NCBI GenBank assembly: GCA_902558375.1 | Contig: CACEDQ010000012.1 | Coordinates: 1-33,592 of the forward strand | Direction of reading: 5' to 3' | Source: an uncultured SAR86 cluster bacterium | GTDB lineage: Bacteria; Pseudomonadota; Gammaproteobacteria; Magnimaribacterales; D2472 | DNA length: 33,592 nt | Shown: in pieces, positions 4,287 to 10,442 of the stretch | Position numbering within the stretch: the first letter of the stretch is position 1 | Layout: each line of letters begins with the position of its first letter | Position numbers and translations under genes: made by a program | The notes under the pieces: model-generated | Database searches by the model: none | What the model saw: only the letters and a program-made list of their open reading frames with translations | Told to the model about the DNA's origin: nothing

Positions 4287-4378
4287 GCATTATACATAAA
4301 AAATAAGCATATTTATCCTTATAAAATCGTACATTTAGTGATTATTTATAATAAATTAAATTTATTTTATAAAAACTA

Positions 4379-4406
4379 TTGATAATATAATATAAGTATA
4401 TATAAT
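4379..4406 (+). promoter_or_regulatory. sigma70-type promoter for the 4413-4490 small RNA
   Basis: TTGATA at 4379-4384 and a perfect TATAAT at 4401-4406 are separated by 16 bases. Initiation about 7 bases downstream would begin at ~4413, exactly the first base of the small RNA's 5' hairpin. The surrounding sequence is AT-rich, so other -10-like boxes occur by chance. The match between predicted start and hairpin start is what singles this one out. Confidence 0.55.
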
Positions 4407-4412
4407 AGTACT

Positions 4413-4490
4413 TGTCAGCACTCCTCTCCCCCTATTAGATTTGCTGACACTCTGGAATCATATGGAGGGCTCAGTCCCTCCATTTTTAAT
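4413..4490 (+). ncRNA. candidate small RNA with CU-rich loop (two hairpins)
   Basis: In this otherwise AT-rich gap a GC-richer block of about 78 bases has the layout of a free-standing small RNA. An 8-bp stem pairs 4413-4420 (TGTCAGCA) with 4442-4449 (TGCTGACA). Its 21-base loop contains the pyrimidine run CTCCTCTCCCCC. A short linker leads to a second hairpin, 4462-4469 with 4476-4483, followed by a T-rich stretch like an intrinsic terminator. A promoter sits just upstream. No open reading frame fits the block. The CU-rich loop could pair with Shine-Dalgarno-like GGAGG sequences, as in the CU-loop sRNAs of Alphaproteobacteria. It could instead be an attenuating leader for the small ORF at 4506. 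I do not recognise it as a named family. Confidence 0.55.
4462..4490 (+). terminator. intrinsic terminator or attenuator hairpin
   Basis: ATGGAGGG (4462-4469) and CCCTCCAT (4476-4483) form a perfect 8-bp stem closed by the 6-base loop CTCAGT. It is followed by TTTTAAT, giving the GC stem plus U-tract of a Rho-independent terminator. The U-tract is short, so partial read-through into the small ORF at 4506 is plausible. Confidence 0.6.
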
Positions 4491-4505: not shown

Positions 4506-4592
4506 ATGAGTAAATATAAAGAAATATTTGAAACTGCAATTTTAGTTAGCGTTTTTGTGATTTCTGTTCTTGCAATTGGGCCAATAGCTTAA
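4506..4592 (+). CDS. 28-residue single-pass membrane miniprotein (candidate)
   Basis: ATG at 4506 opens a 28-codon frame ending TAA at 4592. The product starts MSKYKEIFETA, polar and charged, then about 16 hydrophobic residues (ILVSVFVISVLAIGPIA), which would make one transmembrane helix with the N-terminus in the cytoplasm. AAGAAG at 4493-4498, 7 bases before the ATG, is a reasonable ribosome binding site. That is notable because most genes in this window lack one. It lies between the candidate sRNA terminator and the glutathione-peroxidase-like gene (28-base gap). Function is unknown. Chance ORFs of this size are common, but the RBS and the clean helix design argue for reality. Confidence 0.45.
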   Translation: MSKYKEIFETAILVSVFVISVLAIGPIA

Positions 4593-10248: not shown

Positions 10249-10266
10249 AAATTGCGCCGAGGCTAA

Positions 10267-10436
10267 CAAACCAAATCACCGCCATGTGTTTTACCTGAAC
10301 CGAAAGGTCAGGTGGTGAATTTCTTATCAAATCAGGCTTCCCTATATAGGTATTGCACAACAATGATAGTGGAATATCACCTATTTAATAGTATCGGTTC
10401 AAATTTAATAACACATTAGCGAATGAACCAGAATGT
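10267..10436 (-). ncRNA. ssrS: 6S RNA
   Basis: 6S RNA binds sigma70 RNA polymerase by mimicking an open promoter and represses transcription in stationary phase. It lies exactly where it does in E. coli, between zapA and ygfA on one strand. The ~170-base length is close to 184 in E. coli. On this strand the 5' part carries TTCGCTAATGTGTT, which pairs with AACACATGGCGG near the 3' end. Other recognisable elements are AACCGATA, GAAGCCT, ATTCACC and the hairpin ACCTGAC...GTTCAGGT opposite the central bubble. A terminal stem pairs ATAGGT with ACCTAT. Ends are estimated from the closing stem and promoter to within a few bases. Confidence 0.9.
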
Positions 10437-10442
10437 AAAGAA

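Follow-up and report, generated by a model that had tools for sequence, protein, structure and literature searches.

A probable small RNA family of SAR86 bacteria whose CU-rich loop is predicted to pair with the leaders of a membrane protein gene and of proteorhodopsin

The window analysed here is a stretch of 33,592 nucleotides (contig CACEDQ010000012.1 of assembly GCA_902558375.1) from an uncultured SAR86 cluster bacterium, whose genome comprises 1,008,300 bases in 31 contigs. It holds a short element, at 4413-4490, that is preceded by a promoter, closed by an intrinsic terminator and followed by the gene of a miniprotein (Table 1). A sequence-only reading of the window had described a promoter facing a unit of about 78 bases that begins with one 8-bp hairpin and ends with another and a T-tract, and our analysis agrees with both parts of this description. 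The promoter, TTGATA (4379) and TATAAT (ending at 4406) separated by 16 nt, matches the consensus at 11 of 12 positions, and the predicted RNA start is placed from its position. The 5' hairpin has 8 bp and a loop of 21 nt (arms 4413-4420 and 4442-4449); the terminator hairpin, also of 8 bp (4462-4483), has a 6-nt loop, CTCAGT, and a T-rich tail. The fold of 4413-4490 reaches -22.6 kcal/mol versus -14.9 (sd 2.8) for 200 shuffles, none of which was as good. Promoter-like matches are not enriched (3 versus 5.8 expected from shuffles) and terminator-like matches number 1 versus 0.4; the unit stands above chance because it is conserved in relatives.

Table 1. Features of the element and its surroundings in the window
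Feature	Positions	Strand	Evidence
Upstream promoter element TTTATTTTATAAAAACTA, conserved	4361..4378	+	Part of the 48-nt motif from 25 sRNA promoters of ten genera
Operator-like AT-rich palindrome TTGATA-N6-TATAAG, overlapping the -35	4379..4396	+	TTGATA and TATAA invariant in 26/26 f1 sites aligned on TTGAT
-10 element TATAAT	4401..4406	+	Promoter scan, 48-nt motif
sRNA copy 'a', predicted transcript of ~78 nt	4413..4490	+	Conservation, fold; both ends inferred
5' hairpin, arms 4413-4420 / 4442-4449	4413..4449	+	Fold, compensated stem changes
Predicted seed CUCCCCCUAUUAG in the loop (loop 4421-4441)	4426..4438	+	Complementary to the 72-aa protein and proteorhodopsin leaders of relatives
Intrinsic terminator	4462..4488	+	Fold, terminator scan, A1 covariation
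28-aa miniprotein, directly 3' of the sRNA	4506..4592	+	Synteny link; looks like one membrane helix

A 131-base query matched the element in all 18 genomes of the window's genus, in two of them (G002 and G005) solely through a second type of copy, called 'b'. At E<=1e-3, a covariance model made from 27 copies (A1, R1) matched 100 of the order's 203 genomes, namely 95 of 107 in the window's family (f1), where the matches span all ten genera (g1 to g10), 3 in family f2 and 2 in family f4. The 14 weakest of the 124 model rows (E >= 8.8e-5), which comprised opposite-strand echoes of the terminator and doubtful matches as well as the f2 and f4 rows, were dropped, leaving 110 clear copies in 94 of the 107 f1 genomes: one copy in 79 genomes, two in 14 and three in a single genome. 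By eye, the two f4 matches are true homologues that share the neighbours gpx and rpiA; no fadB was seen beside these two copies. Two of the f2 matches (3 genomes) were inspected and are not homologues, and the f2 matches were taken as terminator-like chance. The same was assumed for the four weak matches (31.6-34.0 bits) that fell outside SAR86 in a class-wide sample, where 7 of 369 genomes matched in all. Of 19 public sequences that share the loop, 17 bear the name SAR86 and the other two only that of Gammaproteobacterium or Proteobacteria. We take 4413-4490 to be one copy of a predicted SAR86 sRNA family, with homologues in a second SAR86 family.

Paired changes in the stems of relatives, which the sequence-only reading had proposed to look for with a covariance model, are present. 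Thirty copies, drawn from ten f1 genera and from f4, display eight different 5-mers at positions 2-6 of the stem, 20 copies being alike; the complementary partner is complete in 29 of them and the thirtieth pairs from position 3. Over both hairpins, two-sided changes occur in 5 of 14 pairs in A1. When 3' arms were exchanged among copies with different 5' arms, 54% of the inner positions paired, a figure to be read against an own pairing that is complete by construction. The loop is steadier than the stems and reads CUCCUCUCCCC(C)UAU in most copies; its 5' half deviates in g5, g4 and a few g1 copies, and more strongly in copies L019 and L025. It further reads UAUUAG in most g1 copies, UAUUAG or UAUUAU in g8, UAUUA in most g9, UAUUUAG in g6, and UAUG in g5, g7 and g10. 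Conservation shows that the predicted 5' hairpin displays a nearly constant CU-rich loop, and it supports the wider proposal made from the window alone, that of a discrete sRNA with its own promoter, its own terminator and a CU-rich loop of anti-Shine-Dalgarno type.

The 'a' copies lie in a constant setting: in 21 of 21 inspected in f1, from ten genera, the order is divergent fadB, sRNA, a miniprotein of 25-33 aa, gpx and rpiA, and the order sRNA, miniprotein, gpx recurs in both f4 copies. Such constancy is what would be expected of a cis-acting leader or attenuator, with hairpin and terminator governing read-through into the miniprotein and gpx, and the loop could in principle pair with the 5' arm of the terminator (GGAGGG). 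Yet the 'b' copies, with the same promoter, loop and terminator, have only the convergent sbcB behind them (4 of 4 inspected), which argues for a trans-acting RNA rather than a leader; moreover, the loop co-varies with the leader of a distant gene, as described below. We therefore regard the cis-acting reading as quite improbable. As for other neighbours, pseudoazurin lies upstream of the 'b' copy in g1, tRNA-Val adjoins the 'b' copy in all five loci scanned (g1, g2 and g8), and one copy (L025 of genome G011) represents a third setting with none of the 'a' or 'b' neighbours. The miniproteins read in f1 (ten genera) and f4, each apparently a single membrane helix, share a short A-I/V-x-P motif at their end; that of the window has no match in Pfam or PHROG.

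The sRNA promoters resemble each other across a region, about -52 to -5, that takes in both the spacer and the upstream element. A 48-nt profile was built from 25 of them, representing ten genera, and a score cut of 11 was applied. When the contigs of genomes G017 and G110 were read through, exactly three sites in each exceeded 11, those of sRNA-a, sRNA-b and pseudoazurin, with scores of 35-57. Pseudoazurin, an electron carrier (NCBIfam score 137.8, cut-off 109.85), stands alone behind its site in G110 and third after two small ORFs in G017. An IUPAC pattern of the promoter gave 131 matches in 106 f1 genomes and its reversed form none; 88 of them lie at sRNAs (6-9 nt ahead), 34 at pseudoazurin and 9 elsewhere. 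The box precedes pseudoazurin by 16-47 nt, or by 355-372 nt in g1 and g6, and is present at 33 of the 46 closest pseudoazurin matches. In the two f4 promoters inspected, TTGATA is kept and TATAA, the right half of the palindrome, is lost. Conservation in f1 shows a structured element with a common dedicated promoter.

Two further observations concern this motif. A weaker palindrome stands 21 and 36 nt ahead of a likely cytochrome c oxidase subunit II gene in two genera (G017 C1:480720, G110 15944); the full 48-nt profile misses this site, and coxB was rejected as a member of the regulon. In g5, a further near-identical box of the TTGATAATAAATTATAACTAAATATAAT type was found away from any sRNA or pseudoazurin (G076:C3:7556, G078:C66:9572, G079:C32:1292, G082:C2:58852, G093:C2:39864, G097:C1:816321).

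Which regulator might bind the palindrome bears on the function of the RNA. FsrA of Bacillus, IsrR of Staphylococcus and PrrF/RyhB are Fur-controlled iron sRNAs whose single-stranded seeds, C-rich in FsrA and IsrR, block Shine-Dalgarno sites, and PrrF copies are duplicated. A Fur-repressed, iron-sparing sRNA analogous in function to RyhB, PrrF or FsrA might be read into an AT-rich palindrome that contains GATAAT and covers the sRNA promoter, all the more as the window's genome encodes Fur (167.1 bits, curated cut-off 146) and as pseudoazurin contains copper and could thus save the iron of cytochromes. However, in each of the 26 sites the operator is a palindrome of an even 18 bp, TTGATA-N6-TATAAR, so that, unlike in the iron sRNAs, no Fur box covers the promoter. 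We rejected Fur because this spacing is wrong for a 7-1-7 box and because 7-1-7 boxes (1-2 mismatches) exist elsewhere: in G017 as well as in G110 they precede the genes of a TonB receptor and of a ferritin-domain protein. Nor do the best candidate targets of the sRNA include recognisable iron proteins. An iron-sparing role under Fur thus appears very improbable. An FNR-like TTGAT-N4-ATCAA site, also scanned for, does not fit the operator, whose half-sites stand further apart.

As regards targets, the sequence-only reading had looked to nearby genes, and here it found no support: outside the sRNA the window contains matches of 8-10 bases to the loop complement, none of which has more than three G-run bases or lies in the leader of a listed ORF. 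The conserved candidates are instead found elsewhere in the genome. The loop was scored against the start regions of 1337 (G017) and 1247 (G110) crude ORFs, forming 1058 reciprocal-best pairs, and the two best summed duplex energies among these pairs belong to a membrane protein of 72 aa and to proteorhodopsin. In a scan of leaders only (-60..+3), proteorhodopsin came first at -48.9 kcal/mol, a value that none of 200 shuffled loops reached with any gene (best pairs -35.2 on average, -46.2 at the extreme); the 72-aa gene is absent from this ranking because its ORF in G017 was given a start 17 codons upstream of the correct one. Counting exact runs is a less powerful test, and the counts exceed the controls only in part. 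In G017, 13 runs of at least 9 were counted versus 3.7 in shuffles (2 of 200 as high), and in G110 9 versus 3.2 (6 of 200), several of these runs being the AT-rich AATCTAATA, and the loop read backwards as a control gives 8 and 8; runs of at least 10 number 1 and 4 versus 0.8 and 0.7 (100 and 3 of 200 as high). Among other candidates, gpsA and purA were set aside, their high rank arising solely from matches within the coding sequence. A DmdA-like gene (NCBIfam score 267.6 of the 410 required) ranked second in the leader scan, but 15 of 200 shuffled loops give a second-best pair that is as good, and it was rejected too. FtsZ and a formate dehydrogenase (669.6, above its cut-off of 329) were also considered.

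The gene of the 72-aa membrane protein was found in 92 of 106 genomes, and the protein has no match in Pfam, NCBIfam or PHROG. Its Shine-Dalgarno sequence, CUAAUAGGGGG, is among the best conserved loop complements in the two genomes, where the leader scored -21.8 against the genome's own best sRNA copy in both cases. GGGGG is rare within 80 nt before a start (13 of 1337 and 15 of 1247 genes); it occurs in all 31 of the 72-aa leaders read as a locus. The pattern AGGGG ahead of an ATGGA-N-AA-N-GC start was detected in 62 of 106 genomes, the window's own not among them, and the reversed control in none. Among the leaders seen, the Shine-Dalgarno sequence is CUAAUAGGGGGG throughout g1 and g8 and in 7 of 17 from g9, the other g9 forms being UUAAUAGGGGGG (5), CUAUAGGGGG (3), CUAAAUAGG (1) and CUAUCAGG (1). 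It is CUAAAUAGGGGG in 3 of 5 g6 leaders, CCAUAGGGGG in g7 and all g5 but one, ACAUAGGGGG in g10, UUUAUAGGGGGG in g3, and CUAUAGGGGGG in g2 and g4. A second, diverged match to the 72-aa protein occurs in 91 of the 92 genomes; wherever the two are both listed, it is the neighbour of the first, some 75-100 nt further downstream (L180:12789-13007 and homologues).

The bases that flank the G-run change together with the loop: UAUUUAG faces CUAAAUA in g6, UAUG faces CAUA in g5, g7 and g10, and UAUUAG faces CUAAUA in g1 and g8. In 49 genomes, the uninterrupted run between loop and leader measures 9.7 bases with the own leader versus 8.7 with those of other genera. None of 20,000 permutations of the 37 distinct loop and leader pairs was as good, in a test that ignores the tree; with one pair per genus in nine genera (no g4), the median p was 0.003 for runs and 0.0026 for energies, phylogeny again not being controlled, and an earlier eight-genus version had the same outcome. 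Exceptions to the co-variation are g3, with runs of 8 in all, and, in g9, G134 (6) and G132 (8); the g4 loop and leader, taken from different genomes, look unmatched by eye. These data support an action of the loop on the mRNA of the 72-aa protein in which it covers the Shine-Dalgarno sequence, which should block ribosome binding.

SAR86 is among the most abundant bacteria of the surface ocean, and it was on a genome fragment from SAR86 that proteorhodopsin first came to light (PMC11582366). The same paper makes the cultured SAR86 strain HIMB1674 the type of Magnimaribacteraceae, a family that is probably distinct from f1. In our set, proteorhodopsin (PF01036) was found in 90 of 106 genomes; it was not found in the window's own, incomplete genome. 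We analyzed 29 leaders, from 30 loci less one with a truncated gene: 15 from g1, five from g5, three from g6, two from g4, one each from g2, g7, g8 and g10, and none from g3 or g9. In 19 of the 29 (15 of 15 in g1, 2 of 5 in g5, and in g7 and g8) a GGGGG, which in 18 leaders extends to GGGGGAG, precedes the start by 39-52 nt, above a separate Shine-Dalgarno sequence. With one loop per genus, pairing was at or above 95% of the leader's own shuffles in 21 of 29 leaders and no better than shuffles in g4, g6, g10, one g1 and one g5; in g6 the GGGGG stands at -11, and in g2 the loop match is inside the Shine-Dalgarno sequence itself. Proteorhodopsin is thereby suggested as a second target in some genera. 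That the sRNA would free a hidden Shine-Dalgarno sequence by binding GGGGGAG was rejected as a general mechanism: in five folded leaders its unpaired fraction drops (from 0.13 to 0.0 in G110, from 0.52 to 0.04 in G014 and from 0.38 to 0.23 in G103) or shows no drop (G017 and G076). Three g6 proteorhodopsin leaders (L233, L234 and L236) carry a Fur-like box, TGAGAATCATTCTCA (TGAGAATTATTCTCA in one), about 53-67 nt before the start, a hint that proteorhodopsin may be under iron control in g6.

It is conceivable that the sRNA is real and has another main partner, protein or RNA, the leader complementarity being a by-product of G-rich ribosome sites. The exceptions in g3, g4 and g9 and the weak exact-run statistics would agree with this. 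Against it stand the rarity of GGGGG before starts in general, set beside its presence in every 72-aa leader and in proteorhodopsin leaders of g1, g5, g7 and g8, and the change of the flanking bases of the 72-aa site with the loop. On balance we think this reading unlikely, and retain that of a trans-acting RNA that pairs with both leaders.

Several properties of the element are those of trans-acting sRNAs that use a CU-rich anti-Shine-Dalgarno loop without Hfq: its own promoter and terminator, a conserved structure, and complementarity to unlinked leaders that co-varies outside the exceptions in g3, g4 and g9, phylogeny not being controlled. As for the host, none of the 31 genomes searched within the order, 16 of which are at least 90% complete, gave a match to Hfq (PF17209), whereas the same search was positive for E. 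coli and four more of the 14 genomes used as controls. Helicobacter pylori likewise is not known to have Hfq. No Rfam family reached its gathering score over 4413-4490, and the three matches at E<=5 are far below their own; the library presumably includes the alpha-r14/cuckoo family. In this family, as described in PMC10746234, relatives have three hairpins, each with an unpaired CCUCCUCCC. The sequence-only reading had likened the element to cuckoo-type RNAs such as CcsR, and the likeness stands for the manner of working: NfeR1, CcsR and their kin likewise have CU-rich anti-Shine-Dalgarno hairpin loops on differing stems, and paralogues. It does not extend to membership, since the SAR86 RNA, from another bacterial class, has one CU-rich hairpin plus terminator, with the motif CUCCUCUCCCCCUAU, instead of three hairpins with CCUCCUCCC. 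RepG of H. pylori (PMC8295292) similarly pairs a C/U-rich loop with a G-run in an mRNA leader. In RepG this loop belongs to the terminator and the partner is a homopolymeric G-repeat that varies, whereas the SAR86 RNA, with CTCAGT in that position, would use the loop of its 5' hairpin and a fixed AGGGGG context; unlike RepG, it occurs in up to three copies per genome. By the features compared, the SAR86 RNA appears closest in working to alpha-r14/cuckoo and RepG and a member of neither; it is a new sRNA family of a known kind.

Searches by title and opening of the abstract, which left subscription literature and ocean small-RNA surveys largely outside their scope, returned no paper on SAR86 small RNAs, and a metatranscriptomic sighting may exist in print. 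Likewise, no sRNA acting on proteorhodopsin was found by title and opening of the abstract, no literature mentioning both SAR86 and pseudoazurin was found, and a term search of the marine primary-transcriptome paper PMC5069720 gave no mention of SAR86.

Taken together, we consider it probable that the element encodes a trans-acting, Hfq-independent base-pairing sRNA with a shared dedicated promoter, whose loop pairs with the 72-aa and proteorhodopsin leaders. That the element is transcribed, that it represses, and what its co-regulation with pseudoazurin means are inferred. Transcription would begin near 4413 and end at the intrinsic terminator; a dedicated regulator that binds the palindrome at the -35 would govern it together with the second sRNA copy and the pseudoazurin operon. 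The CU-rich loop would then pair with AGGGGG-type sites in mRNA leaders, as complementarity and co-variation suggest: over the Shine-Dalgarno sequence in the 72-aa gene, and, for proteorhodopsin in several genera, at the GGGGG(AG) further upstream, where expression would be lowered or, less likely, raised. More tentatively, and with more doubt than confidence, the system may be a switch between light and respiration, in which a redox, metal or light regulator induces pseudoazurin and two CU-rich-loop RNAs that shut down proteorhodopsin and the 72-aa protein. Were this so, proteorhodopsin would here have its first RNA regulator, as far as our literature searches show. With its conservation, its independence of Hfq, targets that can be tested and a regulon of just three promoters, such a riboregulator offers an entry point to the signal that would couple pseudoazurin, the RNAs and proteorhodopsin levels.

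The window contains a second structured RNA, a 6S RNA on the minus strand at 10264-10437 (Rfam RF00013, 60.7 bits, gathering score 46.4). It adjoins a gene for 5-formyltetrahydrofolate cyclo-ligase, a common neighbour of 6S RNA.
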